Shown: one piece after another, positions 4,797 to 43,567 of the stretch
How the letters are laid out: every line of letters starts with the position of its first letter
Numbering within the stretch: position 1 is the stretch's first letter
The notes under the pieces: generated by a model
What the model was told of the DNA's origin: nothing
Databases searched by the model: none
Seen by the model: only the letters and a program-made list of their open reading frames with translations
DNA from: Luteolibacter sp. Y139
Lineage (GTDB): Bacteria; Verrucomicrobiota; Verrucomicrobiia; Verrucomicrobiales; Akkermansiaceae
Assembly: GCF_038066715.1 (NCBI RefSeq)
Contig: NZ_JBBUKT010000001.1
Location: 1 to 64,000 of the forward strand
Reading direction: 5' to 3'
DNA: 64,000 nt
Position numbers and translations under genes: made by a program

Positions 4797-6793
4797 GTCG
4801 GAAGGGTTGCGGATACTTCAGTGCCTTCCCCGGGCCTGCTGTCAATCGAAAGACTCCCGCCCAATGCAGCCACCCGTTCGTGCATCCCGGTCAGGCCATA
4901 GCCCTTCCCGACACGCTCCGCGACATCGAAACCGCCCCCGTTATCCAGCACCGTGAGCGTCACCCAATCGCTGCCAAATCGCAACCGCACCACGATTCTG
5001 TTAGACCCGGAATGCCGCGCCGCATTGGTCAATGCCTCCTGTCCGATGCGTAGCAAGGCGCTCTCCTGATCCGCCGAAAGCGGCCTCGGGGTGCCCTCGA
5101 TTTCCTGCTGCGCGATGACCTTTCCATCCCGCGTCAAATCGGCCGCAAAGCGTTGCAACGCCGTCGCCAGATCCGCCTCGCCAAGCGCCAGCGGCCGTAA
5201 ATTCCACACCGTCCGCCGCGCCTCCCGCATGCTGTCGCGGACCAGTCCGCGCGCCGTCTCCAGGTGAAGCCGCGCCTTCTCCGGCTCCTCGCTGATCTCA
5301 TCGCGCACGCACTCGAGTTGCAGCGAAATCGAAGTCAGCCCCTGCGCCAGTGAGTCATGGATCTCCCGCGCAAATCGCCCTCGCTCGGAAAGCACCGCCT
5401 CAAACTCACGGCGCTGCGTTTCCTGCTCGCGATGCCGCTTGGTACGGTTCCTCGCGTAGATCGCCAGCATCACCGCAATGATCGCCGCCGCGGCCATGAT
5501 CACCCGCTGCGTGGTCCACCACGGCGGCAGCGAAAGCACTTCCACATCCGCTGGCGAACGCAGCCGCACCAGCAGCTTGTCTTCTTCCTGCAAGGGCTCG
5601 AACGCCCCCGCCGAAGTAATCTGCGCGATCCCGTTCACGATCACCCGCGAACCGGGCACCAGCTCCGGCAAGGTGCCATCCAGCTCGCCTAACAGCCCCC
5701 GGAATACCGTCGCATGGTCGCGCAGTTCCAGTGTCGTTCCATCCTCGCCGCGGAAGACGTCCAGCAGCTCCGCCTCCAGCGAAACGAACTCCGCCTGATG
5801 CCTCGCATGAAGCACCTCACGCGCCTCGAACTTCAGCGGCTGCGGCTTCTCACCCGTCCCCACCACCCGCGCCCCGCGCGCCCGCAGGATCGGCTTCATC
5901 GGCCCCACTCGCGGCCACCCATCCGCCTCAACGATGCTACCCGGCACCGCCGCCACCGGCTGGGCCGTCTGCACCCACAGGCCGCCGCCATCCGTGCGGA
6001 GAAACATCCCGCGCCCGGGCATCGCCAGCGTCGCGATCCCACGGACTCGCACCAGTTCATCCGGACCCTCCCCGGTGAATCGGAAAAGCTCATCCGCGCG
6101 CACCAGCCGCGGCTCCGCTTTGCGATCCCGCCGCTCCAGCGACACCACGTCATCCAGCGAGTTCACTCGCAGGAATCGCCGCGTCATCTGCCGCCCCGCA
6201 TTGAAAATCGTCGCCGCCACACCCCGGATCCGCACCGGACTTTCGGCCAAATCCCACGGCACCGACTCCGGCGGCAAGGGCCCTTCTAACAGCGCATGAA
6301 ACTCACAGGGCCCCGCCTGGCATTCCAGCACGATGTCTCCCTCATTCATCAGCACCTCGCGAACCAGCGCCTCCACCTCGATCCACTCGCAATCGAGATC
6401 CGGGCGGTCCAGCTCTTCACCGCTCACATGCTTTGGCTCGGGCAATGCCTCGTGCCCCAGCACTTCGATCTGCGGCGCTTTCCCATCCACGCCCCGGATC
6501 ACCGGCGCGAAATAACCGCGCCCCGTGACGCCCGTTACCTCGATCCGGTCACCCGTCACCGGCCATTTTCCGCCCCCTTCCAGCGGCTGCTCCACGAAAA
6601 TCCCCGCCGTCCCGTCATGCAGGAATAGCGCAATCCCCGGCTCGTGGACAAACGGCGCGAAGCCCCGGATCTTCACCGGCCTCCCCTCCGCCGCTGCCTC
6701 CGGTGAAAGCGCCCTAACCTCCGCCGCCGACGTGATCACGCCCTGCCCAAGCGCCACCCGCGACGCCATCAGCATCACCACGACCGCCATCAT
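4793..6793 (-). CDS. Sensor histidine kinase (HisKA_3 type) with a large extracytoplasmic region
   Basis: 666 residues from the chosen ATG, which gives a short signal/anchor (MMAVVVMLMASRVALGQ); a TTG at 6850 would add 19 residues. Residues about 20-400 are extracytoplasmic and seem to hold three or four beta-rich modules of roughly 100 residues, each with a phrase like RVRGIATL, KIRGFAPF or IVNGIAQI, suggesting repeated OB-fold-like domains. A transmembrane helix near 425-445 leads to a dimerisation domain with the phospho-acceptor histidine in REIHDSLAQGLTSISLQ, then an HATPase domain with the N box (GQEALTNAARHS), G1 box (DNGGGF) and G2 box (GYGLTGMHER). This is the NarX/LiaS kinase class. 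It phosphorylates the co-transcribed NarL-type regulator. Ligand unknown. Confidence 0.9.
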   Translation of the reverse strand: MMAVVVMLMASRVALGQGVITSAAEVRALSPEAAAEGRPVKIRGFAPFVHEPGIALFLHDGTAGIFVEQPLEGGGKWPVTGDRIEVTGVTGRGYFAPVIRGVDGKAPQIEVLGHEALPEPKHVSGEELDRPDLDCEWIEVEALVREVLMNEGDIVLECQAGPCEFHALLEGPLPPESVPWDLAESPVRIRGVAATIFNAGRQMTRRFLRVNSLDDVVSLERRDRKAEPRLVRADELFRFTGEGPDELVRVRGIATLAMPGRGMFLRTDGGGLWVQTAQPVAAVPGSIVEADGWPRVGPMKPILRARGARVVGTGEKPQPLKFEAREVLHARHQAEFVSLEAELLDVFRGEDGTTLELRDHATVFRGLLGELDGTLPELVPGSRVIVNGIAQITSAGAFEPLQEEDKLLVRLRSPADVEVLSLPPWWTTQRVIMAAAAIIAVMLAIYARNRTKRHREQETQRREFEAVLSERGRFAREIHDSLAQGLTSISLQLECVRDEISEEPEKARLHLETARGLVRDSMREARRTVWNLRPLALGEADLATALQRFAADLTRDGKVIAQQEIEGTPRPLSADQESALLRIGQEALTNAARHSGSNRIVVRLRFGSDWVTLTVLDNGGGFDVAERVGKGYGLTGMHERVAALGGSLSIDSRPGEGTEVSATLPT

Positions 6794-6914
6794 CACGCGG
6801 AGGAAAACCTGCACGATCCCACACACAGACCATCCCACGTCATCGTGCAAGGCTACGCTGAGACACCCGCTGTAACCTTTCTCTCCTCCCCGGCGTACTC
6901 CCGGTCAGACTGCC

Positions 6915-7811
6915 ATGAAAACGACCGCTCTTTTCCTCCTCGCCTTCGCCGCCCCGCTTTTCGCCGGCGAAATGGTGCCCTCCCAAATCCCCGCCTCCGC
7001 CAAATGGCTGCTCCACGCCGACCTCGATGCCATGCGCGGCAGCGAGACCGGGAAGAAGATCTTCGCCCGCATCGAGGACGAGCACGGCGCCAAGCTCCGC
7101 GCCTTCAAGCGCATGTTCTCCATCCATCCGCTCACCGACCTCCACGGCGTCACCCTCTACGGCGATGGCAAGCCCGAGCACGCCGTCGCGCTCATCGATG
7201 GCACCTTCAATCGCGAGCACATGGAAGACCTCGTGAAGGCCGCCGATGACTACAAGGAAACCTCCCACGCCGGATTCACCGTCCATAACTGGAACGACAA
7301 GGGCAAGGACCAGCACGCCGCCTTCGCCAGCGATCACCTGCTCGTCTTCAGCCATCAGGAAGACTTGCTGAACACCGCACTCGACGTGCTCAAGGCAAAC
7401 GTCCCCGCCTCCGCCGATCCCTTCTTCACTGCCGAAGGCGGCAAGCCCCTCCTCGCCGCCAGCGCCAAGATCTCCGAAATCGATATCCCCGCCGACGCCG
7501 CCCGTCTCCTCCACATGGCCAAGACCCTGCGTCTCGCCGCCAATGAAAACGCCGGCCGCTTCTTCCTCCGTGCAAATGCCGACACCGCCGATGCCCGGGA
7601 CGCCGAGCGCCTCCGCCGTATGCTCGATGGCGTCGTCGCCTTCGCCCAAGCCGGCGATGCCAAGCTCGATGGCCTCGACCTCCGTGCCGACTTCTCCTCC
7701 GCCGCCACCCCGCCCTCCCTCTCCGCCGCCCTCAGCCTCCCCGTCGCCGAATGGATCACCCTCATGGACAAGGCCGCTGCCGAAGACGCGAAGAAAAAGA
7801 AGAAGGACTAA
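6915..7811 (+). CDS. Secreted protein of unknown function upstream of an ECF sigma gene
   Basis: 298 residues with a clear signal peptide (MKTTALFLLAFAAPLFAGE). The mature part begins with PSQIPASAKWLLHADLDAMRGSE, a beta-strand/alpha pattern I recognise from uncharacterised secreted proteins of Verrucomicrobia and Planctomycetes, and ends in a lysine-rich tail (AAAEDAKKKKKD). No catalytic motif seen. It lies 46 bp upstream of an ECF sigma-factor gene and its probable anti-sigma partner in the same orientation, so it may be part of that regulatory unit, for example as its target or envelope sensor. It is divergent from the histidine kinase. Confidence 0.75.
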   Translation: MKTTALFLLAFAAPLFAGEMVPSQIPASAKWLLHADLDAMRGSETGKKIFARIEDEHGAKLRAFKRMFSIHPLTDLHGVTLYGDGKPEHAVALIDGTFNREHMEDLVKAADDYKETSHAGFTVHNWNDKGKDQHAAFASDHLLVFSHQEDLLNTALDVLKANVPASADPFFTAEGGKPLLAASAKISEIDIPADAARLLHMAKTLRLAANENAGRFFLRANADTADARDAERLRRMLDGVVAFAQAGDAKLDGLDLRADFSSAATPPSLSAALSLPVAEWITLMDKAAAEDAKKKKKD

Positions 7812-7857
7812 CCTCGGTCCTTTCCGGATCTCCTCCGCTAATCCACACTGATACATC

Positions 7858-8424
7858 GTGAACTCTTTCCCCTCCTCCGATGACTCCCTGCTCGCGCGCC
7901 AGGCGCGGGAGGGATCATCGGCGGCATTCGGCACCTTGGTTCACCGCTATCACGCCCGCGTCTTCGCCTTCCTCCTCACCCTGACCCGCCATCGCCAGGA
8001 CGCCGAGGACCTCACCCAGGACACCTTTGTTAGAGCGTGGAACAAGATCCATCGCTACGATCCCTCCCTGCCTCTCCTTCCCTGGCTCTTCACCCTCGCC
8101 CGTCGCCAATCCATCGCCGCCCTGAGGAAATCGCGCCCCCTTCCACCCGACCTGCCCTTCCCCACCGAGCCCGAACCGGAAAGCCCGGCTCTCCAACTCT
8201 GGGCCATCGCCAAACGCCAGCTCGCCCCCGAAGCCTACAGCGCTCTCTGGCTTCACTACCGCGAGGAACTCCCGCTCAAGGAAGTCGCCAACATCCTCGG
8301 CAAGCGCGAAGGTGCCGTGAAAGTCCTCCTCCACCGCGCCCGCAAGTCCCTCGCCGAAACCCTCCGCGCCAAAACTCCCCCACCCCTTCCGCCGCCGCTT
8401 CCCGAACTTCAACGCACCCCATGA
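7858..8424 (+). CDS. ECF-type RNA polymerase sigma factor
   Basis: 188 residues from a GTG start. Sigma region 2 (about 10-80) contains FGTLVHRYHARVFAFLLTLT and the core-binding/-10 motif DAEDLTQDTFVRAWNKIHRYD followed by PWLFTLARRQSIAALR. A short linker leads to region 4 (about 115-170) with YREELPLKEVANILGKREGAVKVLLHRARKSL, the -35 recognition helix-turn-helix. The C-terminus is proline-rich (PPPLPPPLPE). It overlaps the next gene by four bases, whose single-span membrane product is the likely anti-sigma factor. Target promoters are unknown. Confidence 0.92.
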   Translation: MNSFPSSDDSLLARQAREGSSAAFGTLVHRYHARVFAFLLTLTRHRQDAEDLTQDTFVRAWNKIHRYDPSLPLLPWLFTLARRQSIAALRKSRPLPPDLPFPTEPEPESPALQLWAIAKRQLAPEAYSALWLHYREELPLKEVANILGKREGAVKVLLHRARKSLAETLRAKTPPPLPPPLPELQRTP

Positions 8425-8810
8425 ACCCGCGCGATCCCCATCACGAAATCGGCGACCTGCTCCGCTCGCAGAAGCCCGATCCGCAGCCATCGCCCGGTAT
8501 GGAGATGCGCATCCTCCGCGCCCTCCCCTCCCGCGAAAAAAACGCCCGCCGCATCTGGCCCTGGTTCCTGCTCCCTCCCGCCGTCGCAATGGTGATCGTC
8601 GTGATCTTCTCACCAAAGCCCGCTTCACAAGCCGTCGTCTCCCAGCATCCCAAACCCATAGCGGAGCAACCCATCCAACCCACCCCCGTGGAAGAACTCA
8701 CGCTTACGAACAATCCGCTCGAACAAGAAAAGCTCGCCCTTCAACGCGACGCCAGCCGAGCCGGGCGCTTCCTCATCGACTGCCTTCCATCACTCGGCGG
8801 CAACGAGTGA
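8421..8810 (+). CDS. Putative single-pass anti-sigma protein
   Basis: 129 residues; the ATG overlaps the sigma-factor stop codon (ATGA), which fixes the start, although the frame stays open for more than 380 bases upstream. Residues 1-42 are cytoplasmic in character, 45-63 (RIWPWFLLPPAVAMVIVVIF) form one transmembrane helix, and the rest is probably periplasmic, ending in RDASRAGRFLIDCLPSLG. No canonical zinc anti-sigma motif (HxxxCxxC) is present. The assignment rests on position and topology rather than on sequence. Confidence 0.7.
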   Translation: MNPRDPHHEIGDLLRSQKPDPQPSPGMEMRILRALPSREKNARRIWPWFLLPPAVAMVIVVIFSPKPASQAVVSQHPKPIAEQPIQPTPVEELTLTNNPLEQEKLALQRDASRAGRFLIDCLPSLGGNE

Positions 8811-8815
8811 ACCTC

Positions 8816-8900
8816 ACTGGGAGCGCGGAAGTGGAGCGCAGCGGAAGTGGTCCGGGTCATTTCCATCCCTCCGGACAATTCATTCCGCCCGAGCGGTCCC
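8816..8900 (+). repeat. Dispersed intergenic palindromic repeat, split copy
   Basis: The left part (ACTGGGAGCGCGGAA) and right part (TTCATTCCGCCCGAGCGGTCCC) match, nearly base for base, the contiguous element at 22174-22210, but here they are separated by 48 bp. The core GCGGAAT/ATTCCGC halves are complementary. Both copies lie just after a stop codon on the coding strand. Confidence 0.6.
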
Positions 8901-30169: not shown

Positions 30170-31906
30170 TCAGGGGGACTTGCTCGCCAGCCACGCCTTC
30201 CAGCCGCCGAAGCCGGTGATCTCCTCCGCCCCGTCCGCCGCCCGCGGTTCGGCAATGAACCCCGGCAGATCCTCGCCGTTTTCCATCAGGACCTTACCGA
30301 TCCCCAGCGGCCCGGGGATCTTCGAGACGAAATCTCCAAACGCCGCGGGCGAAAGATCCCAGACCTCCACCTCGATCGCCGCCCCTCCCTCCTCGACCCG
30401 GATCAAGGCCGGACGCGGCGGAATGGTGCCCACCGCCGGCATCGCATACATCCGGTAGACCGGGGCCGTCTTCGTCCGGGACCGCAGCGTGGCCCCGCGC
30501 TCGGCGAGCTGCCAATGCAGCGGCAGGCCTTCCAGGTGAGCACCACAGACCACGACCGGAATCACGTGACGCTGTACTTTCGGAAAGTCGGAGAATGTCT
30601 CGCCGCCAAACCGGGCAGCCAGCTTCAAAAGCTCGCCGTCCCATCCCGCCGGAGCGGCAAAGGTCACACCCCATCTCGCCCGCCCTTCCCTCGCCTTCCC
30701 GGCGGGCACCGCGATCGCGCTCAGGTCGAGCAGGTTCATGAAGTTCGTATATTTCCCGAGCGTCGCATTGGTCTGGAACGGCTCGTCCAGCACCTCGGCC
30801 ACCGTATAAATCCTCGGCGTCGTCGGCAGCAGCAGCACCTCGATGTCCTTCCACACGTTCCCCGCGATCCGCGCCAACTCCGCCAGACGATACTGGGCCC
30901 GGAAAGTCGCCGCAGCATCCCAGTCTTTGGACGCATCCAGAATCTTGCGCGTCACCGGGAAAACCTCACCCGGATTCTCTTCCACGAAGCCACCCACGGC
31001 GGCCCACCGCTCGGCCACCCACGGTCCCTCGTAGAGCAGCTTCGCCGCATCCACGAAAGGCTTGAGGTCGATCCCCACCGGCTCACCGCCGATCGCCTTC
31101 ATTCGCTCGATCGCCGCGGCAAACAAGCCCGGCGTGTCGGCATCTCCCGCGAAGTCCGTCTCCAGCGGCACCCCGAAACGAAAGGTCCTGCCGACCGCTC
31201 CCGTCGCTTTGATCTCACGCGAAAACGGATCGCCTTCATCAAAGCCCGAAACCACCCCAGCCACGAGGGATACATCCTCCACGGTGTTCGTGAAAACGGA
31301 GACACAATCGAGTGACCGGCACGCCGGAACCACCCCGCGGGTGCTCAGCAGCCCCTTCGTCGGCTTCCATCCGATCAACTCTTGGAAAGCCGCCGGCACG
31401 CGCCCTGAGCCCGCGGTGTCCGTGCCTAACGAAAAACAACACAACCCCGCCGCCACGGAAGACGCGCTCCCCGAACTCGATCCACCCGGAAGAAACTCCG
31501 CATCGATCGCATTCCGCGGAGCGCCATAAGGCGAACGCGTTCCAACAAGCCCCGTCGCAAACTGGTCGAGGTTGGCCTTCCCAATCGGAATCGCCCCGGC
31601 AGCCCGCAAGCGGTTCACCACCTCTGCATCCGCAGCCGGCACATAGGAGAAAGCCGGACACGCCGCCGTCGTCGGCATCCCCTCGACATCGATATTGTCC
31701 TTCACCACAAACGGAACACCCCATAACGGCAGATCACCAGGCATCGCCTCCACCTGCCCCGCGATCTCCAGCAGCTCCTCTTTCTCCGGCAAGTGAATGA
31801 ACAGCGCCGGGTCATCCCAAGCCGCGATCTTCTCCCACAGCTCTTCAATCAGCTCCGTCGGCTTCAGCCCCTCCGCATAGCGCTTCTTCAGCTCGGTGAT
31901 CTTCAT
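30170..31906 (-). CDS. atzF: Allophanate hydrolase (amidase-signature family)
   Basis: 578 residues. The amidase-signature domain (about 45-440) shows the Ser-Ser-Lys triad K69 (VVKDN), S143 in GGSSSG and nucleophile S167 in DTAGSGR, all intact. A separate C-terminal domain (about 455-575), with VPVVVCGAHLEGLPLHWQL and SRTKTAPVYRMYAMP, is typical of allophanate hydrolases and absent from other amidases. It cleaves allophanate to two ammonia and two CO2 equivalents. It lies 12 bp after the carboxylase gene and is the last step of the guanidine/urea route. The next gene downstream is the haem operon. Confidence 0.95.
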   Translation of the reverse strand: MKITELKKRYAEGLKPTELIEELWEKIAAWDDPALFIHLPEKEELLEIAGQVEAMPGDLPLWGVPFVVKDNIDVEGMPTTAACPAFSYVPAADAEVVNRLRAAGAIPIGKANLDQFATGLVGTRSPYGAPRNAIDAEFLPGGSSSGSASSVAAGLCCFSLGTDTAGSGRVPAAFQELIGWKPTKGLLSTRGVVPACRSLDCVSVFTNTVEDVSLVAGVVSGFDEGDPFSREIKATGAVGRTFRFGVPLETDFAGDADTPGLFAAAIERMKAIGGEPVGIDLKPFVDAAKLLYEGPWVAERWAAVGGFVEENPGEVFPVTRKILDASKDWDAAATFRAQYRLAELARIAGNVWKDIEVLLLPTTPRIYTVAEVLDEPFQTNATLGKYTNFMNLLDLSAIAVPAGKAREGRARWGVTFAAPAGWDGELLKLAARFGGETFSDFPKVQRHVIPVVVCGAHLEGLPLHWQLAERGATLRSRTKTAPVYRMYAMPAVGTIPPRPALIRVEEGGAAIEVEVWDLSPAAFGDFVSKIPGPLGIGKVLMENGEDLPGFIAEPRAADGAEEITGFGGWKAWLASKSP

Positions 31907-31918
31907 GGGAATGTCCTG

Positions 31919-34900
31919 TTAGCCTTTCGCCCGCACCACCACCAGCGATTGCCCCGCCCGGACGCTCGCCCCCTCCGCCACCAGCACTTCCACCACCTCC
32001 AGATGCTCGTCGGCATCCAGCGGGACCTCCATTTTCATCGCTTCCAGAATCATGGCCGTAGCGGAGACATCTAGCAGATCCCCTGCCTGAACGTGAATCT
32101 TCCACACGCTTCCTGTCACCGGGCTATCCAGCGTGGAGCAGCCATCGGGAATCGTGACCTCGCTCACCTCCACGGTTTCCTCCGCCGGGCTGTCCATCGA
32201 AAGCCCCGCCTCCTCCCACCGCCGCCGCTCCGCTTCGAAGGAAGCCCGCTGCGTCGTGCGGAAATCTTCGATCTCATCAGCATTGGCTTCAAGGAATGCC
32301 TCGTAGTCGGCAAAGCGAAACACAGTCTCCTCAATCTCCAGCTTGTGCCGGCCCCGCGGAACTTCCTCACGCAAGCGCAGAAGCTCCTCCGCACTCACCG
32401 GATAAAAACGCAGTTGATCGAAGAAACGCAGCAGCCACGGATCCTGGAAATCCTCCGTCTTCCGCCACCGGTTCCACACCGGGATCGTGCGACCGGTGAA
32501 CTGATAACCGCCCGGCCCTTCCATCCCATAGATGCACAAGTAAGCACCACCGATCCCCACCGCATTCTCCGGTGTCCACGTCCGCGCCGGATTGTATTTC
32601 GTGGTCACCAGTCGGTGCCGTGGATCCAGCGGCGTCGCCACCGGCGCGCCCAGATACACATCACCGAGCCCCATCACGAGATACGAGGCATCGAAGAAAA
32701 TCCGGTAAACATCATCGATCGACTCCAGCCCATTGATCCGGCGGATGAATTCCAGGTTGCTCGGGCACCACGGAGCATCCGGTCGCACGCTCTGCATGTA
32801 GCGCTGGATCGCCTCGCGCGTGCTCGGATCATCCCAGCTGATTGGCAAATGAACCACGCGCGCAGGAACCTCAATCTGCTCCAAAGGCGGCAGGGAAACG
32901 ATCCCTTCGCGAATCCTCGCCCACAACGCATCACGGGAAATCACACTCGCGTCGAAATGCACCTGCAACGAACGAATGCCCGGCGTAAGATCAATGATAC
33001 CACCGATCCCCTGCTCCTTCAGCCACTCATAGACCACGTGCACCTTGAAGCGCAGCTTGAGGTCCAGATGATGCGGCCCAAACTCGATGAGAATGTAGCG
33101 ATCCCCCGCGCGCCTCGCCACAACCGCATCATCCCCTTCACCAAAGCTCTCCAAAATCGGAGACGGCAGATGCTCCAAGGCCGATGGTGTCGGCAGTTCC
33201 GAAGCATCCCCCGAAAGAAACGCCTCCACCATCTCCGACTGCTCCGCCGCCCATGGCTCATCCACCGGGATAAACCGAACCTTATCGCCGGGCCTCAGCT
33301 GACCGAGCTTCCACAGCTCCGCATCAATCACCACCACCGGACAAACAAAGCCACCGAGACTCGGCCCATCGGGCCCCAGAATCACCGGCATGTCCCCCGT
33401 GAAATCGACTGCGCCAATGGCATACGCATTGTCGTGCAGATTCGAAGGATGAAGACCCGCTTCCCCACCATCCTTCCGCGCCCACTTCGGCTTCGGCCCG
33501 ATCAAGCGAACCCCCGTGCGAGCCGAATTGTAGTGAACCTCCCAAGCCGTCGCGAAGAACGTCTCGATATCCTCATCCAGGAAAAAGTCCGGCGCCCCAT
33601 GCGGTCCATAAAGCACCGCGATCGTCCAATCATGCGTTAAGGAAGGAGGACACTCCTGTCCTCCTCTAACAACGCCAGCCGCGTTCCCAATCCCCAACAC
33701 ATCCCCCGGCAACAACGCCCGCCCGAACGGCCCACCAAATTTCCCCAGCGTGAACGTCGAAGCACTCCCAAGATAGTCCGGCGACTCAATCCCGCCACCC
33801 ACGGCAAGGTAGGAGCGCATCCCCGGCCCCTCGATCCGACCAATCTTGATCGTATCCCCCGCCACCACCTCCACCGCCGCATGCATCGGCACCGGCTCAC
33901 CGTTCTTTAAAACCAGCACCACCGCACCAGCGAGCGCAAGGGTCGCAGCCGCATTGAATCGCAATGTCGGCCCCGCCATCGTGATCTCCAATCCCGGCGC
34001 ACCATCCGGATTCCCCACAAGCCGGTTCGCCAACCGGAACGACAGCGAATCAAACGGCCCGCAAGGCGGCACACCCACCTCCCACAATCCCGTGCGTCCC
34101 GGCCAATCTTGTACGGTGGTCATCGTACCCGCCGACACCACATCGAACGTTTTCGGCCGATAGTCAAAGCGCGCCATGTCCCGCATCGCTACCCCACCCG
34201 CCAGGAATGGCTCCCATCGCGAGACCTGACGCAGGTAACGCAGATTCGTCTCAAAGCCCGAGATCCGCGTCTCATCAAGCGCCTTGGAAAGCAGCGCCGC
34301 CGCATCCGCACGATCCTTGCCGTGGACCATCACCTTGCTCAGCAGTGGATCATAAAACGGACTCACCTCGGTCCCCGCCTGGATCCAACCATCGCAACGC
34401 GCCCACTCGGGAAACGTCGCCTCGGTCAGCAAACCCGAACTCGGACGAAAGTTGTGATTCGGATCTTCCGCATACACCCGCGCCTGGATGGCGTGACCCT
34501 GCGGCGCCGGAGCACTCGCTGGCATCGTCCACTCCGGATCAAGCGCCAGGCGGATCATCCATTCCACAAGGTCGATCCCGGTCACGAGTTCCGTCACCCC
34601 GTGCTCCACCTGCAGGCGCGTATTCACCTCCAGGAAAAAGAAGTCCCCGCGATCCGCATCATAGATAAACTCGACCGTGCCAGCAGAGCGATAGCTCACG
34701 CTCTCCCCCAGCTTTACCGCCGCAGCATGAAGCTCCTCGCGAACCTTGTCCGAGAGATCCGGCGCTGGCGTTTCCTCGAAGACCTTCTGGTTCCGCCGCT
34801 GCACCGAGCAATCCCGCTCACCCAGCGCCAGCACTCTCCCCAGCCCGTCACCAAAGATCTGCACCTCCACGTGCCGCCCACGTTCGATGAAGCGCTCAAT

Positions 34901-35485
34901 GAACACCCCACCCGAACCAAAGCTGCGCTCGCTCAAACGCACCACACTCTCGAACTCCTTGGCCAACTCCTCCGCATCGCGACAGACCTTCATCCCGATG
35001 CCACCACCACCCGCCGTGCTCTTCAGCATCACCGGATAGCCAATCTCCCCAGCCGCCGCGACAGCCGCCTCTGCAGAAGCCAGCAGATCCGTCCCCGGCA
35101 CCAATGGCACCCCTGCCTCACCCGCCAGCCGGCGAGCCTCATGCTTCAAACCAAACGCAATGATCTGCTTCGGCGTCGGCCCTAGCCACTTCACTCCGGC
35201 CTCTTCGCACATCCGCGCGAAGTCCGTGTTCTCACTCAACAACCCATAGCCAGGAAAAACCGCCGCGGCCCCGCTTTGCTTCGCAACCGCAATCAGCGAG
35301 TCCTTCAGCAAATAGCTCTCCGACACCGGTCCCGGCCCAAGCCGATGCGCCTCATCCGCAAGATCCACATGCGGCGCACCCGCATCCGGATCCGAATAAA
35401 CAGCGATCGCCCGATGACCGAGCCTGTGAATCGTACGGATCGCACGTGCAGCGATCTCGCCACGGTTAGCGATGAGAATGTTCAT
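31919..35485 (-). CDS. Biotin-dependent guanidine/urea carboxylase
   Basis: 1188 residues, complete. Order: biotin carboxylase with ATP-grasp (1-445, beginning [34 protein letters not shown]), then the two carboxyltransferase halves of the KipA (about 455-770, [20 protein letters not shown]) and KipI (about 800-1020) type, with the phrases [20 protein letters not shown] and [20 protein letters not shown] near 1000, and the biotinyl domain (about 1115-1188) with the biotin-lysine motif EAMKME. Proteins annotated urea carboxylase that are encoded next to two DUF1989 proteins have been shown to prefer guanidine, so guanidine is the likely substrate here; sequence alone does not settle it. Confidence 0.93.
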
Positions 35486-35519: not shown

Positions 35520-36149
35520 TCAGAAGATGAGTACTTCGACCGGCGTGGGATTCCACCCGTTGCAAGGATTGTTGAGCTGCGGACAATTCGAGATCAAGCA
35601 CACGACATCCATCGCCGCCTTCATCTCCACATAACGACCCGGCGCGGAGATCCCGTCCGCAAACGTCAGCCCGCCCTCCGGCGAAACCGGCACGTTCATG
35701 AAGAAGTTGATGTTGCACGCGATGTCCCGCTTCGTGAGCTCCACCTTCCACTCCTGCGCCCCCCGGATGAAAGAGTCGCGGCACGCATGCATGCACTCCT
35801 TGTCGTGCGCATAGCGCATCGTGTTGCTCTCGCGGGAACACGCACCGCCAAGCGTATCGTGCCGACCACAGGTATCGGCCGTGATCTCCAGCAAGACATT
35901 CCCCTCCGTGCTCATCAGCTTGGTACCGGTGGTCAGGTAGAGCGCCTGCTGGGCCTGGATGGTGCCATCCGCCGAGTAGCGATCGGTCGGATCAGCCGCG
36001 CTGTAGAAGAGCGTGTCCGCAGCCTGGTTGCCTTCCAGATCGAGGATCCGCAGCGTCTCGCCGCGCTTGATTTCATGGACCCACCAATCACCCGCAGGGA
36101 TGACGTGGCGATAGCTGGCATTCGCCGGATCGAGGGTGCTTTCGGTCAT
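35520..36149 (-). CDS. Carboxyguanidine deiminase subunit (urea-carboxylase-associated protein 1, DUF1989)
   Basis: 209 residues from the [15 protein letters not shown]. The DUF1989 fold is recognisable from [55 protein letters not shown] and the C-terminal [20 protein letters not shown]. The cysteine/histidine-rich [13 protein letters not shown] segment is the presumed metal site. Members encoded with urea carboxylase pair with a second DUF1989 protein to deiminate carboxyguanidine to allophanate plus ammonia. The longer partner follows directly upstream (five bases between genes). The assignment as subunit 1 is from length and order only. Confidence 0.85.
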
Positions 36150-36154
36150 GGCGG

Positions 36155-36871
36155 TTAGAAGCGAAGTGCGTGATAGGTTTCGTTGTTCTCCCAAGCCCGG
36201 AGATTCTCCGGCCGAATGGTGAGCGAAGGATCGTCCAAGGCAGGCGCATCCCCCTCCAGAATCTCCAGCTTCACCGGATGCGACCGATACTCCGGATCGG
36301 GATCAAAGGGATGCTGGCAGGTATTGAGCACCACCAGCGTGTCGATCTCGAAGCGCAGTTCCACCACCGCACCCGCCTTCGAATGCCCCGGGACAAACGA
36401 CAGCTTGCCGGCTTCGTCAGCAACCACCTTGCTGAACCAATTCAGATTCGGCACCAGGTCCTTCTTCCCGAGCCCCCACTTCGCGAGCTCGATGAGAAAG
36501 CAATCCCGCGCGTTGCGATACCACTCGTTCCGCGCGTGTTGGTAGTCGTGATCGCCATACTTCGCGAGCACACCCGCGGCATTCGAGTGACCGCACACCG
36601 TATCGTGCCAGCCGACCGTGTCCTCCGTGATCGACGCCAGCAGCCGCCCCATGTCGGAGTGCAGGCAATACGGCGCGCGCAGGTAAAAGATGTGCTGCCC
36701 CTTCAGCGTGTCCGGCATGTTGTAGCGCTCATGCCGCTCCAGCGCATTGTAGAGCAGCATGCCCACGTTCGCGCCGCCTTCAATGTCCGTGAGACGCAGG
36801 CGCTTGCCGCGGGAAACGACGCCGGACCACATGCCCGCGCCAGTCAGAGTTCTTTCTAACAAGAGGCTCAT
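36155..36871 (-). CDS. Carboxyguanidine deiminase subunit (urea-carboxylase-associated protein 2, DUF1989)
   Basis: 238 residues from the [20 protein letters not shown]. It is homologous to the downstream gene: [60 protein letters not shown] and [20 protein letters not shown]. The GWHDTVCG segment carries the likely metal ligands. Forms a heteromer with the 209-residue subunit. It follows the NikR-like regulator gene by 13 bp, so regulator and catabolic genes are in one transcript. Confidence 0.85.
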
Positions 36872-36884
36872 GGGAACGTGAAAT

Positions 36885-37340
36885 TCAGCGGACCCTGCGC
36901 GCATGAAGCGGCGGCAGCAGGTGAGGAGTGAGGGTGAGATGAGCGCTCTTCACGCCCTTGCAGGTGACCAGTTCGTTCGCGATGCCGCGCAAGGTCTTCG
37001 CCGGCCCCTGCATCAGCAGCACCTCCAGCACGTGGTCGTCCTCCAGCAGCACGTGCTGCGAGGAAATCACCTCGCTGAGATGGCTGCGACACACGCGCGA
37101 GAGATCCCGCAGCAGCGAGCTCTTCGATTCGTCGTAAATCAGCGTCAGCGTGCCCGCCATGATCTCGGTGCCGATCTTCCCGAGATGCTCGGCAGATTGC
37201 TGGTGGATCATTTCGGAAATCGCCTGCGAACGGCTGTCGAAACCCCGCTCGTTCACCAGTCGGTCGAGCGCTTGGAAAGTATCCTCCCCCATCGACACGG
37301 TCACCCGCCGCAAGCCATCGCTGCTGTCGTCCTTCGGCAT
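36885..37340 (-). CDS. NikR-like ribbon-helix-helix regulator with altered metal site
   Basis: 151 residues. Residues 11-50 ([20 protein letters not shown], then [10 protein letters not shown]) form a ribbon-helix-helix; 60-140 form an ACT-like NikR domain ([39 protein letters not shown]). Against E. coli NikR (H76, H87, H89, C95), aligned by eye, only H96 (for H87) remains; H89 corresponds to L98, C95 to V104, and H76 to R85 with H87 two residues away. Nickel response is therefore doubtful. Two NikR-type operators lie nearby, one directly before this gene. It probably represses the guanidine cluster and itself; ligand unknown. Confidence 0.85.
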
Positions 37341-37369
37341 GCCATCGGAAGATGCAGACGTCGCGCCAC

Positions 37370-37397
37370 GTGTGAAGTTTTTTCGAAAATTTCATAC
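37370..37397. promoter_or_regulatory. NikR-type operator before the regulator gene
   Basis: GTGTGA-N16-TCATAC, 28 bp, with the half-sites extending to GTGTGAA/TTCATAC. This equals the E. coli NikR operator architecture (GTATGA-N16-TCATAC) with one base changed. It lies about 30 bp before the regulator's start codon, in the 74-bp gap after the ATPase gene, and suggests autoregulation. Confidence 0.75.
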
Positions 37398-37414
37398 TTT
37401 AGAAAACCACACGG

Positions 37415-38293
37415 TCACACCACATCAGGATCAGGCGCGCTGAATTTCAGCACCGGGAAGTTCTCCTTCGCTTCAGTCCCCGGCGGATGGATCAGGTGCT
37501 CGATGTGCTTGCGCGTCGCAAGGAAGGCAGGATCAGCGATCTGATCGAACGACCGCGGACGCGGCACCGGCACCTCGGTCACCTCACGGACGCGCCCGGG
37601 ATTCGCATCCAGCACCAGGATCCGGTCCGACAGGAACACCGCCTCGTCCAGATCGTGCGTGATGAAGACAATCGTGATGTCCACGTTCTTCCAGATCTCT
37701 AACAAATACGACTGCATGTTGCAGCGCGTCTGCGCATCGAGCGCCCCGAACGGCTCATCCATGAACAGCACCCGCGGCTGATTGGCCAGCGCCCTGGCGA
37801 TGGCCACACGCTGCTTCATCCCGCCGGAAAGCTGGTGCGGATACGCGTTCTCGAACTTCGTCAGCCCAACGAGCTCGATCCACTCCCGCGCCTCGCTCTC
37901 CGCCGCAAACGCCGAGCGCCCCGCCATCATCGGGCCGAACATCACATTCCGCTTCACCGTCAACCACGGGAACAGCGTGTAGCCCTGGAAGACCATCCCG
38001 CGATCCGAGCAAGGCCCGGACACCGGCACACCCTCGACAATGATTTCCCCTTCACTCGCCGTCTCCAGCCCCGCGAGAATCCTAACCAGCGTCGACTTCC
38101 CGCAGCCGGATGGCCCGATCACGCTCATGAACTCGCGCTTGTGAACGTCGAACGACACATCACGCAACGCGGTCACGATTCCCCGAGGCGACTCGAAGTG
38201 CTTCGTGAGCCCGCGCACACTCAGCGCGACCGGACGTTGTTTCAGCCGGTCAAAGCGAGCGGCAACGGGAGCAGCGGGTGCTGGCAGACTCAT
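37415..38293 (-). CDS. ABC transporter ATPase (nitrate/sulfonate/taurine type, guanidine cluster)
   Basis: 292 residues; the ATG overlaps the permease stop (ATGA), and the frame further upstream is not used. Walker A is GPSGCGKST, the signature LSGGMKQR, Walker B VLFMDEPFGALD, and the switch histidine ITHDLDEAV. N-terminal 30 residues precede the conserved VRGLTKHFESPRGIVTALRD. Family: TauB/SsuB. It energises the transporter with the permease and binding protein upstream. C-terminus (AKENFPVLKFSAPDPDVV) is slightly longer than usual. Confidence 0.95.
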   Translation of the reverse strand: MSLPAPAAPVAARFDRLKQRPVALSVRGLTKHFESPRGIVTALRDVSFDVHKREFMSVIGPSGCGKSTLVRILAGLETASEGEIIVEGVPVSGPCSDRGMVFQGYTLFPWLTVKRNVMFGPMMAGRSAFAAESEAREWIELVGLTKFENAYPHQLSGGMKQRVAIARALANQPRVLFMDEPFGALDAQTRCNMQSYLLEIWKNVDITIVFITHDLDEAVFLSDRILVLDANPGRVREVTEVPVPRPRSFDQIADPAFLATRKHIEHLIHPPGTEAKENFPVLKFSAPDPDVV

Positions 38294-39663
38294 GCGGAAG
38301 GAAGGGTTTTCGAAGCAGTCCGGAGGCGAGCACCGGCAACGATGGTGCGCACCGGCCAAGTCACGGCACTCGCCACTGCGCGGGAAACAGGACCGGACCG
38401 GCCAGACCACGGGAAGAATACGCCATGGAAGAATGCGAGGATCTGATCGCTCACGAAGCCTGTAACCCCGATCAGAATGATGATCGGGAACACGCGGTCA
38501 AAGTTGCGGAAGGTTCCCTGCGTATCGAGGAAACCGGTCAGGCCGCTCTTCACCCCGATCAACTCGGCAATGACCAGCCACGTCCACGCCCACCCGAGCA
38601 GGATCCGCATGTCGTTATAGAGATTCGGCAGGATGCCGGGCAGCACCACCTTCATCACCAGTTGCCGCGGCTTCGCACCCAACGTCTGCGCAGCCTCAAG
38701 CAGCGCGGGATCTAACAGCCGCGTCGTTTTCGAAACCACGAGCACCATCTGGAAGACCGTGCCAATAAAAACCAGCGCCACCTTCGGCGCATCGTGCGCC
38801 GACAGCACCGCCACCAGCAGCGTGCTGAAAGTCGGCGCGGGCATGTAGCGGAAGAAGTCAACGAAAGGCTCGAAGAGCTTCGAGAACACATCGAACACAC
38901 CACACAGGATCCCAAGCGGCACCCCGATCACACAGGACCAGAAGAAGCCGAACAGGATGATGCGCAGCGAATGCCCATAGCGATCCAGCATCGGCGGCGC
39001 ATCCCCTTCCGGCCTGGCCGTGAAGTCCGTGGCCGCAGCCTTCCACACCTCATGCGGCGGAGGCAAGTAGACCGGGTTCGATGGAATGCCTTGGGGAACC
39101 AGCTTCTGCAGCGGCACCTGCGGAAGCTTCTTCGAATCGAAATCCGCCGACAGCGCCGAGAGCGCGGCCCAGTTCGCCTTGATGACGCCGATGTTCTCCT
39201 CACTGAGCACAGGATCAGTCGAGGTCTTCACCCCGGTCGCAAGATCACGCCAGAGCTGATAGATCGCAGCATCATCCTGCTCCGATCCCGCAGCGAGCCA
39301 GCCATTCCTCACTCCCACCTGCGCTAGCTGCCGCAGCAGGACCCGGTTCGCCCGCTGGGCACCGGGGACCACCTCCCCCGTCTGCGCCACCTTCAGCGCC
39401 TCCGCATTGTCCTGGTGGATGGCATCCACATAGGTCGGGAAGAATTCCTGGCTGAGCCGGTTGCCCGCCGTGAAGACCGCACTGATGCGCTCGGTGGTCG
39501 AGGCCACCTCCAGCTTCACATCCGGATGCCAGATCCACGGGACGTAGGAAACGGCGCACCACAGCGCGAGCGGCAGCACGAACGACAGCGCGGCGAGAAG
39601 AGTCCGCCGCCCCCGCGAGAGATCGCGGCGCACGACGAACCAGCCTTTGAGAAAAGACGCCAT
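38290..39663 (-). CDS. ABC transporter permease with an extra periplasmic domain (guanidine cluster)
   Basis: 457 residues, much longer than a TauC-type permease (about 260). The first helix (about 20-42, RTLLAALSFVLPLALWCAVS) is followed by about 165 residues predicted outside the membrane, then by a normal binding-protein-dependent permease core from about residue 225, with the coupling motif EAAQTLGAKPRQLVMKVVLPGILPN. Such long permeases are characteristic of transporters encoded beside urea/guanidine carboxylases. The inserted region may help capture the ligand or dock the binding protein. Confidence 0.9.
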   Translation of the reverse strand: MASFLKGWFVVRRDLSRGRRTLLAALSFVLPLALWCAVSYVPWIWHPDVKLEVASTTERISAVFTAGNRLSQEFFPTYVDAIHQDNAEALKVAQTGEVVPGAQRANRVLLRQLAQVGVRNGWLAAGSEQDDAAIYQLWRDLATGVKTSTDPVLSEENIGVIKANWAALSALSADFDSKKLPQVPLQKLVPQGIPSNPVYLPPPHEVWKAAATDFTARPEGDAPPMLDRYGHSLRIILFGFFWSCVIGVPLGILCGVFDVFSKLFEPFVDFFRYMPAPTFSTLLVAVLSAHDAPKVALVFIGTVFQMVLVVSKTTRLLDPALLEAAQTLGAKPRQLVMKVVLPGILPNLYNDMRILLGWAWTWLVIAELIGVKSGLTGFLDTQGTFRNFDRVFPIIILIGVTGFVSDQILAFFHGVFFPWSGRSGPVSRAVASAVTWPVRTIVAGARLRTASKTLPSA

Positions 39664-39678
39664 GAGCAGGAAAGTCGC

Positions 39679-39702
39679 CGGCCGGAAGACCCCAGCCGGC
39701 CG
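39679..39702 (-). other. Intercistronic hairpin after the binding-protein gene
   Basis: CGGCCGG/CCGGCCG form a 7-bp all-GC stem with a ten-base loop inside the 51-bp gap between binding-protein and permease genes. There is no T tract. Hairpins at this point often protect the abundant binding-protein mRNA from 3' decay; that role is inferred. Confidence 0.45.
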
Positions 39703-39714
39703 TGGATCACGACG

Positions 39715-40692
39715 TCACTTCTTGAGCGCCTTGGTGAGGGCCGGGCTCAGATACTTCTCCGGATCCTGGCTGTCCTTGTAGACCTTGTACTTCAGGTTGA
39801 AGGCATTCACGTTCTTCGTGGAGCCATAGACCGATCCCAGCCCATCGGCCTTCTCCCAACGCTTCAGCGCCTCATCGAGCGTGAGGATGTACGTCCCCTT
39901 GAAGAAGGGCTCATACTCTTCCGGCTTCAGATTGACGCGCGCGGAGAGGATCTTGAGCGCATCGTCCAGATTGTCCTCATCGCGGATGTAGGCAGCGATC
40001 TTGTACCACACCTTCACCACCTTGGCCCAGTCTTCCTTGTTCTTCTCCAGGCTCTCGGCGGAAACGTAGAGCAGATCGTAGATGATGCCCGGAGCATCGG
40101 CAGAGGTGAAGACAGGCTTCGATCCCGGCAGCGCCTTCAGCGCCTGACCCGAGTTCGGCTGCCACGCACCGATCGCATCCACCGCCTTGGAGGCGAGCAC
40201 CTGCGGCGTCTCATTGGTCGGCGTGTTGACGATGGTCACATCCTCCGGCTTGAGCCCGTTTTTCTCCAAGCCGGTCAGCAGCAGGAGATGCTCCACAAAG
40301 CCCTCTTCAATCCCGACCTTCTTGCCCTTGAGATCCTTCATCGTTTTGACCCCCGGCGCCGCCACGATCATGTCGTTGCCGTTCGAGAAGTCATTGATGA
40401 GGATGCCCACCGATGGCTTGCCGGTCGCACCCGTCACGAGCGCATCGCCATTGGTCATGCACACGGCATCCACCTTGCCTGCGACGTAGGCGTCCATCGA
40501 GGGCACGTAGTCGAACCACTCGAACTTCACGTCCACGCCCTCCTCCTTGAACCAGCCCTTCTGGATCCCGATCTCCCAGGCGATCCAACCCGGCCAGTCG
40601 GAGTAGGCGATCTTCAGCGTTTCGGCATGCGCGAGGCCGGACAGGGCAAGCACGCCGGCGAGAAGCGATCGGAAGCGGGGCATCATGGTCAT
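39715..40692 (-). CDS. ABC transporter periplasmic binding protein (urea-carboxylase-region type)
   Basis: 325 residues from the ATG at 40692; GTG at 40695 and ATGs at 40686 and 40683 are close alternatives. A signal peptide ([20 protein letters not shown]) leads to the mature protein beginning [20 protein letters not shown]. It has the NMT1/SsuA-like type-2 periplasmic fold: [57 protein letters not shown]. Tryptophan and acidic residues in the N-terminal strand suit a cationic ligand such as guanidinium, though this is inference. First gene of the ten-kilobase cluster, behind an operator and a sigma-54-like promoter. Confidence 0.9.
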
Positions 40693-40726
40693 CACGGTGT
40701 CGGTCAGGGGTTGCTGGCATCCCGCG

Positions 40727-40754
40727 GTATGAAGTTACCGCGTTTTGTTCATAC
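40727..40754. promoter_or_regulatory. NikR-type operator before the guanidine transporter operon
   Basis: GTATGA-N16-TCATAC, 28 bp and a perfect match to the E. coli NikR operator consensus, with extension to GTATGAA/TTCATAC. It ends 35 bp before the binding-protein gene. An overlapping inverted repeat (CGCGGTA/TACCGCG at 40723-40742) could also form a hairpin in the leader mRNA. Confidence 0.8.
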
Positions 40755-40761
40755 CGAAAAA

Positions 40762-40777
40762 AGCACACCCCATACCA
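40762..40777 (-). promoter_or_regulatory. Sigma-54-like promoter for the guanidine transporter operon
   Basis: Minus strand reads TGGTATGGGGTGTGCT followed by TTTTT: the invariant GG (-24) and GC (-12) are exactly ten bases apart, as sigma-54 requires, while three of the other consensus positions deviate. The predicted start, about 12 bases on, falls inside the adjacent NikR-type operator, where a bound repressor would block it. Confidence 0.45.
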
Positions 40778-40795: not shown

Positions 40796-40827
40796 CAAAA
40801 AGGGCGGCTGCGTTTCCGCAGCCGCCC
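40796..40827 (-). terminator. Intrinsic terminator of the porin gene
   Basis: A perfect 11-bp GC-rich stem (GGGCGGCTGCG/CGCAGCCGCCC) with a short TTTC loop lies 31 bp beyond the porin stop codon; on the minus strand it runs into TTTTTGTTTT. It insulates the porin gene from the operon that starts just downstream. Confidence 0.88.
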
Positions 40828-42079: not shown

Positions 42080-43567
42080 ATGAGCCTGAAAACACGAATG
42101 GCAAGCGGCGTCTGTACGCTAGCTGCCCTTGCAATGATGGTCTTGCCGCTGGCCACCCCGGCCCACGCGCAAGAATCCACCCCGCCACCTGCAGCCGAGG
42201 CCGCCGCGCCGGCCGCAGCAGCCGCCGCCACGCCGACGGTGGAAGAGCGACTGGCCGATATCGAGGCCTACATGAACAACGTCAAGCGCCCGGACAAGAC
42301 CAGCGGCGCCGCTTCGCTCGTCGCCGGTCCCGGTCCTGGCCACAATGCCTGGCAGATGGTCAGCACTGCCCTCGTGCTGTTCATGACCTTGCCCGGCTTG
42401 GCTCTCTTCTACGGCGGCTTGGTTCGCCGGAAGAACGTGCTCTCCGTCCTCGCCCAGTGCCTCGGATGCGCCTGCATGATCACCCCGCTCTGGTGGCTGT
42501 GCGGCTACTCCCTTTCCTTCGGCGTGGATGCCAAGAGCGCCTTCATCGGCGACATGAGCAATGCCATGTTCAAGGGCCTGTCCCCTTATAACGTTGGAGC
42601 CGGCTACCACTGGATCTCGGACGGCATGTGGGCCATGTTCCAGCTCACCTTCGCCATCATCACTCCGGGCCTCATCGTGGGTGCCATCGCGGAGCGCATG
42701 AAGTTCGTCTCCATCATGGTCTTCATCCTCCTCTGGATGTTCGCCGTCTACTTCCCCTTCGCCCACATGGTGTGGTCCACGGTTGGCTTCATGTGCGGCC
42801 CGCTTAACCCCGGCGCCACCATCAAGGCCATCGACTTCGCCGGCGGCACCGTCGTTCACATGACCTCCGGTTGGAGCGCTCTCGTTCTCTGCCTTATCCT
42901 TGGCAAGCGCATCGGCTTCGGCAAGGAGCCGATGGCCCCGCACAGCATGGTTCTCTGCATGGTCGGCACCGGCATGCTCTGGGTCGGCTGGTATGGTTTC
43001 AATGCCGGCTCCGCTCTTGGTGCTGATGGCATCGCTTCGAATGCCTTCGTGACCACCACCCTCGCCGCCGGCACCGCCGGTCTTGCCTGGGCCCTGATCG
43101 AATGGATCCTCAAGGGCAAGCCAAGCGTGCTCGGCTTCTGCTCGGGCATCGTTGCCGGCCTCGTGGTCATCACCCCGGCTGCTGGCTTCGTCACCGCCAC
43201 CTCGTCCGTCATCATGGGCGTGCTCGCCGGTGTGGTTCCCTTCATCGCCGTCGCTTACCTCAAGAAGATGCTCGGTTACGACGACGCCCTCGACACCTTC
43301 GGCGTCCACGGAATCGGCGGCACCATGGGTGCCATCCTGACCGGCGTCTTCGCCTCCAAGGAAGCCAACCCTGGCATCGAAGGCCTCCTCAATGGCCTGC
43401 TCGTCGAGCAGCTCAAGGCTGTCGGCCTGACCATCGTCTGGAGCGTGGTCGCCACCGCGATCATCGCCTTCATCGTCAAGGCAGTGTTTGGCCTCCGTCC
43501 GGAACCGGAAGTCGAAACCGCTGGCCTCGACCTCGCCGACCACGGCGAAGCGGGCTACGAGCACTAA
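42080..43567 (+). CDS. amtB: Ammonium transporter
   Basis: 495 residues. A cleavable signal (MASGVCTLAALAMMVLPLATPAHAQ) and an Ala/Pro-rich linker of about 60 residues come first, then eleven transmembrane helices. Both pore histidines are present (GGTVVHMTSGWSAL and FGVHGIGGTMGA), as are the Phe-gate and ammonium-recruitment tryptophan regions (AHMVWSTVGF). It is a trimeric channel for ammonium uptake. No glnK follows, which is unusual: amtB is normally linked to a PII gene. A sigma-54-like promoter precedes it and a strong terminator follows. Confidence 0.96.
   Translation: MSLKTRMASGVCTLAALAMMVLPLATPAHAQESTPPPAAEAAAPAAAAAATPTVEERLADIEAYMNNVKRPDKTSGAASLVAGPGPGHNAWQMVSTALVLFMTLPGLALFYGGLVRRKNVLSVLAQCLGCACMITPLWWLCGYSLSFGVDAKSAFIGDMSNAMFKGLSPYNVGAGYHWISDGMWAMFQLTFAIITPGLIVGAIAERMKFVSIMVFILLWMFAVYFPFAHMVWSTVGFMCGPLNPGATIKAIDFAGGTVVHMTSGWSALVLCLILGKRIGFGKEPMAPHSMVLCMVGTGMLWVGWYGFNAGSALGADGIASNAFVTTTLAAGTAGLAWALIEWILKGKPSVLGFCSGIVAGLVVITPAAGFVTATSSVIMGVLAGVVPFIAVAYLKKMLGYDDALDTFGVHGIGGTMGAILTGVFASKEANPGIEGLLNGLLVEQLKAVGLTIVWSVVATAIIAFIVKAVFGLRPEPEVETAGLDLADHGEAGYEH

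Follow-up and report, generated by a model that had tools for sequence, protein, structure and literature searches.

The present analysis concerns a stretch of 64,000 nucleotides from Luteolibacter sp. Y139 (contig NZ_JBBUKT010000001.1, positions 1 to 64,000; the window) and, in particular, a NikR-like regulator encoded on its minus strand at 36885-37340, which combines a ribbon-helix-helix (RHH) and a NikR_C domain and no longer has the nickel site; downstream of it lie, in this order, the genes of UAAP1, UAAP2, a urea-carboxylase-family enzyme and an allophanate hydrolase. These four genes make up the guanidine carboxylase pathway set and are all over their NCBIfam cut-offs. The regulator is probably a dedicated transcription factor of guanidine catabolism, which would repress until guanidine or a close derivative releases its operators; a somewhat better than even chance can be given to the further claim that it represents the first protein transcription factor sensing guanidine, a nickel sensor rewired to an organic cation that has replaced, or been replaced by, riboswitches in the same slot in several lineages. 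The fold, the loss of ligands, the operators and their conservation, the gene linkage and the use of the riboswitch slot are computed results.

Both Pfam RHH_1 (PF01402) and NikR_C (PF08753) are over cut-off in the regulator which, judged by its sequence, is a full-length NikR homologue and, by homology, would form a NikR-type tetramer. Its AlphaFold model, built on a 19-row alignment, has a mean pLDDT of 83.2; NikR is found in 50 of the 50 Foldseek matches listed for this model, and a PDB sequence search also places the protein with NikR. The RHH and NikR_C architecture and the fold are shared with NikR of E. coli, Pyrococcus and Helicobacter, a nickel-responsive RHH repressor. In contrast, the protein remains under the cut-offs of all five NCBIfam NikR models matched, with 94.2 bits versus 105 for the best one (PRK04460) and 67.9 versus 175.45 for TIGR02793. 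Alignment with E. coli NikR retains one of the four nickel ligands, H87 (H96 in the regulator), while H76, H89 and C95 correspond to R85, L98 and V104, in agreement with an earlier reading made from the letters of the window (the sequence-only reading), which had noticed the retention of H96 and the replacements L98 and V104. The cation-site residues E30 and D34 are changed to Q39 and E43 and K102 is replaced by Q111, and E. coli NikR has no counterpart of the C-terminal tail LLPPLH; Q39, E43, E90, Q111-G-P113 and this tail are the signature of a clade described below. No second protein of this type was found in the host genome.

The 28-bp operator GTATGA-N16-TCATAC bound by E. coli NikR (according to the accessible part of PMC7055735) is, as far as the sequence goes, shared by the window. 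A pattern search located operator 1, GTATGA-N16-TCATAC, at 40727-40754 (GTATGAAGTTACCGCGTTTTGTTCATAC), 5' of an operon for an ATP-binding cassette (ABC) transporter, and operator 2, GTGTGA-N16-TCATAC, at 37370-37397 (GTGTGAAGTTTTTTCGAAAATTTCATAC), between the ATPase gene and the regulator gene, so that both sites and their positions before the transporter genes and the regulator gene are those given by the sequence-only reading. The distance from operator 1 to the ATG of the substrate-binding protein (40686) is 40 bp and that from operator 2 to the ATG of the regulator (37340) is 29 bp; both operators start about 57 to 68 bp 5' of the start codons. The pattern has zero occurrences in 100 shuffles of the window. 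A genome scan, which had been proposed together with the first reading, gave two sites for GTRTGA-N16-TCAYAC in 7.1 Mb, both of them the window ones, so the pattern is not common by chance; the reversed control pattern has zero sites in the same 7.1-Mb genome, and no third exact site, which would add members to the regulon, was found there. Both exact sites are on contig C1, and the urease of this genome is on C3.

Homologues were collected by scanning one genome per species and retaining the best 80 of 247 relatives, corresponding to 78 loci (L004-L081), 22 from Verrucomicrobiota and 56 from others, mostly alphaproteobacteria. Since this set is biased by the peptide EVISSQHV, which holds H87 and was one of the search patterns, a second draw anchored on UAAP1 was made. 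It comprises 55 loci with inferred group labels: 30 of the window's order (the top 30 among the loci of 54 positive genomes), 17 gammaproteobacterial (all the positive loci at E <= 1e-60) and 8 alphaproteobacterial (those over the cut-off; a ninth, L123, passes but matches only the UAAP2 of the window). The second set shares at least four loci with the first (L116, L152, L153, L157) and includes three centre genomes bearing the regulator (G000, G023, G024). The regulator lies inside the fetched flanks in 35 of the 55 loci, namely 29 of the order, one alphaproteobacterial and five gammaproteobacterial.

The clade stands beside UAAP1/UAAP2, carboxylase and allophanate hydrolase genes in Verrucomicrobiota, in Alpha- and Gammaproteobacteria and in one myxococcal metagenome-assembled genome. 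UAAP or carboxylase genes are in the locus of 77 of the 78 homologues, the remaining one being at a contig end; a UAAP gene starts within 400 bp downstream of the regulator in 67 loci, and pathway genes are elsewhere in the locus in 10. Thus, unlike NikR, the clade is linked in the window and in these 77 loci to guanidine genes and not to nickel transport or nickel enzymes. It also differs from NikR in its residues. C95 is found in 0/35 members of the UAAP1-anchored set and in 0/78 of the homologue set; among the 35, none of the four ligands is kept in 8, one in 21, two in 4 and three in 2 (the gammaproteobacterial L176 and L177). H87 is kept in 78/78 members of the homologue set, where the search favours it, and in 23/35 of the other, and residue 76 is highly variable over the clade. 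The E30/D34 cation site is altered in nearly all members, with Q at position 30 in 77/78 and 33/35 and D34 mostly changed to E, while Q at position 102 and an added C-terminal tail of the form PP-x-H are present in 35/35. The NikR_C proteins encoded away from UAAP1 in gammaproteobacterial genomes, on the other hand, carry all four ligands in 22/22 cases and the tail in 0/22. A maximum-likelihood tree of 83 chosen rows, which carries a long-branch warning for E. coli NikR, L166/L167 and others, splits 60 pathway-linked from 23 NikR rows with 100/99 support. The sequence-only reading had conceded that a careful alignment might restore the ligands; with C95 lost in every member examined, the alignments did not restore them.

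The decay of the pocket into a ligand-free autorepressor, setting a constant basal level, would agree with the variability of residue 76 and is nevertheless very improbable, because new residues of the C-domain and tail are strongly conserved in the UAAP1-anchored members (E90 34/35, Q111 35/35, P113 34/35, P143 35/35, H146 33/35, besides E100 30/35) and the domain persists in several phyla, contrary to what decay would lead one to expect.

Two side observations concern the loci of the homologue set. Two regulator copies, placed ahead of the transporter genes and of UAAP1, respectively, occur in 15 of the 78 loci, all from sphingomonads (L037, L042, L043, L045, L047, L048, L050, L051, L056, L064, L065, L073, L074, L077 and L079). 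At L018 (2751-8552), carboxylase and allophanate hydrolase genes directly follow the regulator with no UAAP1 or UAAP2 match in the 12-kb locus, which is possibly a case of true urea carboxylase or of an incomplete pathway.

The operators are conserved in close relatives far above the level of shuffled sequences, as emerged from the comparison of related clusters that the sequence-only reading had suggested. A counterpart of operator 2 with at most two mismatches is present in 15/15 of the closest relatives (L004-L018), and counterparts of operator 1 precede the substrate-binding protein gene in 8 of 29 relatives' loci (L092-L096, L098, L100 and L102 among L086-L114). Over the 22 Verrucomicrobiota loci, GTATGA/TCATAC pairs occur 15 times with zero mismatch at spacing 16 and never at the other spacings from 10 to 22. 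With a site score that ignores base 5 of the half-site and a threshold of 9/10 fixed positions, 52 of the 78 upstream regions have a site at spacing 16, compared with 0-4 at other spacings and a mean of 0.13 (maximum 1) in shuffles. Distant Verrucomicrobiota and alphaproteobacteria have the half-site GTATTA/TAATAC in the same 28-bp build. In 14 of 15 loci of the window clade, the site starts 56-59 bp 5' of the start codon (91 bp in L013); in alphaproteobacteria, this distance is mostly 44-48 bp.

Base 5 of the half-site varies together with residue 5 (E. coli numbering) of the regulator strand, which presumably contacts DNA. Among 107 loci with usable upstream sequence, members with T5 have G-type half-sites in 22 cases and none in 3, and those with S5 have T-type ones in 62 cases and none in 18, with 2 further cases tied; unambiguous agreement is thus 22/22 and 62/62, with zero contrary cases, and a reversed-sequence control gives 8 pairs in all. 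E. coli NikR fits the same rule, with T5 and GTATGA. Loci without the strand motif, with fewer than 150 upstream bases or with repeated upstream sequence were dropped from this comparison, and five alphaproteobacterial proteins are still without the DNA-contacting strand after revision of their starts. Other arrangements of half-sites were also observed upstream of the regulator: a direct repeat, TCATAC-N15-TCATAC, in a second T5 group (L170, L192-L198) and everted half-sites, GTAATAC-N14-GTATTAC, in the S5 members L145, L148, L150, L162 and L163. An opposite orientation of half-sites has been reported for NikR-type sites of D. psychrophila (accessible part of PMC545781).

The distribution of the regulator follows that of the pathway. 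In a sample of 189 genomes from the window's order, UAAP1 is present in 54, NikR_C in 54 and both in 53, the exceptions being G213 (UAAP1 only) and G229 (NikR_C only; 77% complete); the two domains are at most 400 bp apart in 51 of the 53 genomes, 3.5 kb apart in G051 and on separate contigs in G193. Because of this co-occurrence and proximity, NikR_C in the order is almost wholly a part of the guanidine pathway. In G213 (L173), where UAAP1 is without NikR_C, no guanidine riboswitch was found in the flank either. In the window's genus, 6/9 genomes have exact operators, and these six are also the ones with UAAP1 and NikR_C; in its family a site near pathway, regulator or transporter genes is present in 10 of 13 UAAP1 genomes. 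The order-wide pattern search matches in 55/189 genomes and the reversed control also matches many, for which reason sites distant from pathway genes are taken as chance.

To our knowledge, the control of genes for guanidine uptake and digestion has so far been credited to RNA switches. A guanidine riboswitch was considered as the control element of the window and rejected, since the window has no Rfam match at gathering scores; guanidine families were not matched in the 24 loci scanned of the 78 of the homologue set, and guanidine-I was found in 0/189 genomes of the order with strict filters. Guanidine-I and guanidine-II riboswitches differ from the regulator in being RNA, and serve the same operon type from the same slot before UAAP1. 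In alphaproteobacteria, guanidine-II lies between the ATPase gene and UAAP1 in 6 of 8 loci, and this slot holds the regulator, in the same gene order, in L116 and many sphingomonads; in gammaproteobacteria, the slot before UAAP1 holds guanidine-I in L175, L178 and L182 and the regulator in L176, L177, L179, L184 and L188. A riboswitch precedes UAAP1 in 9 of the 19 proteobacterial UAAP1 loci without the regulator. Within flanks of about 1.5 kb, 33 of the 55 UAAP1-anchored loci have the regulator only, 15 a guanidine riboswitch only, 2 both and 5 neither (Fisher p = 1.4e-7, or 6e-7 without the three centre genomes), and the two never stand together at the UAAP1 slot (0/55). Four regulator clusters carry a riboswitch elsewhere than in this slot, so the two types of control can share one cluster, as in L035, L184 and L188. 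In V. boliviensis, guanidine-I heads the operon and guanidine-II is found ahead of the carboxylase gene (accessible part of PMC12508155); the arrangement of L184 and L188 parallels this one, and for this reason the regulator is considered to occupy the slot of the leading riboswitch.

A separate observation was made at L035 (G032; 6045-8860), where guanidine-I precedes a gene named by eye as TonB-receptor-like, directly upstream of the regulator; RNA and protein control would thus stand side by side in this cluster, which also hints at uptake of guanidine through the outer membrane.

DNA binding, the sign of regulation and the identity of the effector are deduced from these data as follows. 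The regulator would bind two 28-bp NikR-type operators, that of the transporter operon and that of its own gene which, leading the pathway operon, would be autoregulated. Its former nickel pocket would no longer bind nickel, and guanidine or a close derivative would be the most likely effector; one may guess that E43, E90 and E100 with Q111 are candidate holders of the guanidinium ion. The regulator is taken as a repressor because the operators are near the start codons, probably overlapping the promoters, and because its own operon is controlled; the effector would release it, so that uptake and degradation are switched on together, although activation by a guanidine-loaded form would be an alternative sign. 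Protein and DNA would do here what guanidine riboswitches do by RNA elsewhere. The proposal of the sequence-only reading, in which a NikR scaffold and its DNA site have come to serve carboxyguanidine metabolism in response to a different signal, is thus strongly supported by comparison, with binding predicted, and concerns the family as a whole, not only the window.

Sites outside the pathway operon extend the possible targets. In 17 alphaproteobacterial genomes, GTATTAC-N14-GTAATA occurs in 12, in one or two places each, and the reversed control in 2. The sites at L254 (G031, contig C28, while the pathway site of this genome is on C15) and at L255 (G033, 10 kb from the site of the regulator itself on the same contig) are flanked by a TIGR03427 protein (544.5 and 521.5 bits, respectively) on one side and a divergent 2-oxoglutarate (2-OG)/Fe(II) oxygenase on the other, and in G047 (L250) a site precedes a TIGR03427 gene. 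On an Acinetobacter plasmid, a member (L260) with residues S5, Q30, Q76, H87, Q89, V95 and Q102 is preceded, at about 140 bp, by a T-type site. Its neighbourhood encodes UAAP1/2, the carboxylase and the allophanate hydrolase, as well as an SMR transporter, a hypothetical protein and a 2-OG oxygenase that shares 50% identity with the one at L254. The oxygenase and hypothetical pair resembles mgdH/mgdL only by superfamily and order, and a methylguanidine hydroxylase of the 2-OG/Fe(II) superfamily is under riboswitch control elsewhere (both as far as the accessible part of PMC12508155 goes), as are SMR-type guanidine exporters (accessible part of PMC12186494). As a side observation, a 3.6-kb gene for an ATP-binding protein and a toxin-antitoxin pair are located between the carboxylase and regulator genes of L260 (4446-8614).

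Several points weigh against regulation of this kind. Regulator and riboswitch do not strictly exclude each other: among 48 regulator-bearing genomes, guanidine-I is over cut-off in two (G023 and G032) and weak in one, being located 2.9 kb ahead of the regulator at L035 and, in G023, before UAAP1 with the regulator 10 kb off, while in L184 and L188 the regulator precedes UAAP1 and guanidine-II precedes the carboxylase gene. Neither element is in the 1.5-kb flanks of L115, L173, L181, L183 and L185 (5/55), with a guanidine-II match below the gathering score in L181. Most of the exclusion signal is phylum-wide, and within the 25 proteobacterial loci it falls short statistically (p = 0.059, or 0.14 without two centre genomes). 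The sole alphaproteobacterial locus with the regulator in the UAAP1-anchored set is L116 of G024, a genome chosen as draw centre for bearing it, and the other seven are without it. The binding of the regulator to the operators is predicted, and its effector is suggested by gene context, so that methylguanidine, carboxyguanidine, allophanate or nitrogen status could serve. In NikR, nickel promotes DNA binding and the loaded form is the one that binds; the inducer model therefore needs a reversed allostery. Most members retain H87, and two gammaproteobacterial ones three ligands, so that clade members may bind metal weakly.

Others of these adverse points concern the sites. No sigma-70-type promoter was found at either window operator by a promoter scan at the threshold of the tool, which is ill-suited to Verrucomicrobial promoters. 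Some sites consist of direct or everted, not inverted, half-sites, and the change at residue 5 and base 5 reflects one or two independent events on the tree, the independent-pair test giving one concordant pair on well-supported branches and two on all, too few for significance. No GTRTGA-type site near the genes was found in 3 of the 13 UAAP1 genomes of the family (G139, G151 and G180). In G043, no site was found right before the regulator (L049), and a T-type site 2.6 kb before it (L240, 1501-1527) faces a gene of the metallo-beta-lactamase family.

Among the other explanations, the strongest is that the effector is a later intermediate or nitrogen status (carboxyguanidine, allophanate, urea, methylguanidine or a protein partner) and not guanidine. 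It overlaps in part with the favoured reading, which allows a close derivative, and it gains some credit from the fact that the ligand is indicated by gene context only, and from the oxygenase genes at L254, L255 and L260, which would fit methylguanidine. It is nonetheless unlikely, since the slot is common with guanidine-I and guanidine-II riboswitches and the guanidine-I of V. boliviensis binds guanidine and not methylguanidine (accessible part of PMC12508155).

A considerably lower probability is assigned to a nickel-sparing switch, a side idea of the sequence-only reading, in which weak nickel sensing, or sensing by other residues, would turn on the biotin route, which needs no nickel, under a shortage of the metal for urease or guanidinase. 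The retained NikR fold and operator type, the urease encoded by the host genome, the frequent H87 (78/78 in the pattern-biased set, 23/35 in the UAAP1-anchored one) and the three ligands of L176 and L177 would agree with it, but C95 is absent from all members examined, 8/35 keep no ligand, the E30/D34 cation site is altered in nearly all, the two operators are the only exact sites of a genome whose urease gene is on another contig, and the presence of the clade tracks UAAP1. Ligand alignment, genome-wide sites and urease search thus gave no support to this idea, which was rejected.

No publication linking a NikR-type factor to the guanidine or urea carboxylase pathway was found in the literature searched, which leaves most subscription journals outside; PMC2667541 names NikR and urea carboxylase, but separately in its accessible part. 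MumR of Acinetobacter baumannii also adjoins urea-catabolism genes, in a urea-carboxylase-linked operon, and was rejected as a known equivalent because it is a LysR-family protein, linked to manganese (accessible part of PMC5050338). Close relatives of the regulator on plasmids are annotated as CopG family ribbon-helix-helix protein, CopG family transcriptional regulator or transcriptional regulator, generic names that hide the function of the clade. As a concrete and widespread candidate with defined operators, the clade makes protein guanidine sensing directly testable; if true, guanidine sensing would clearly exemplify the transfer of a metal sensor's site to an organic ligand with the DNA architecture unchanged, and the use of a single operon slot by both protein and RNA regulators.

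The remaining genes of the cluster are all on the minus strand. UAAP1 (36155-36868; TIGR03425, 320.6 bits; its start codon is the authors' choice and the open reading frame may begin at 36904) and UAAP2 (35520-36161; TIGR03424, 325.3 bits) are taken to be carboxyguanidine deiminase subunits, on the basis of the title of Schneider et al. 2020. The urea-carboxylase-family enzyme (31919-35485; TIGR02712, 1782 bits) is read as a guanidine carboxylase because UAAP1 and UAAP2 adjoin it, its substrate being predicted, and is followed by the allophanate hydrolase (30170-31906; TIGR02713, 709.6 bits). The transporter operon runs from 40686 down to 37415 and encodes a substrate-binding protein of the TIGR03427/NMT1 type (39715-40686; TIGR03427, 165.2 bits, under the 333.9-bit cut-off), a permease of 457 amino acids (38290-39663) and an ATP-binding protein identified by profile search (37415-38293). 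Upstream of operator 1, a strong terminator-like hairpin on the same strand (40802-40827) would end the preceding transcript. An Amt-type ammonium transporter gene, before which no exact operator was found, lies on the opposite strand at 42080-43567, some 1.4 kb from the guanidine transporter operon on its upstream side. In the permease, about 245 residues come ahead of the BPD_transp_1 domain, a long N-terminal part that is presumably unusual for this transporter type.

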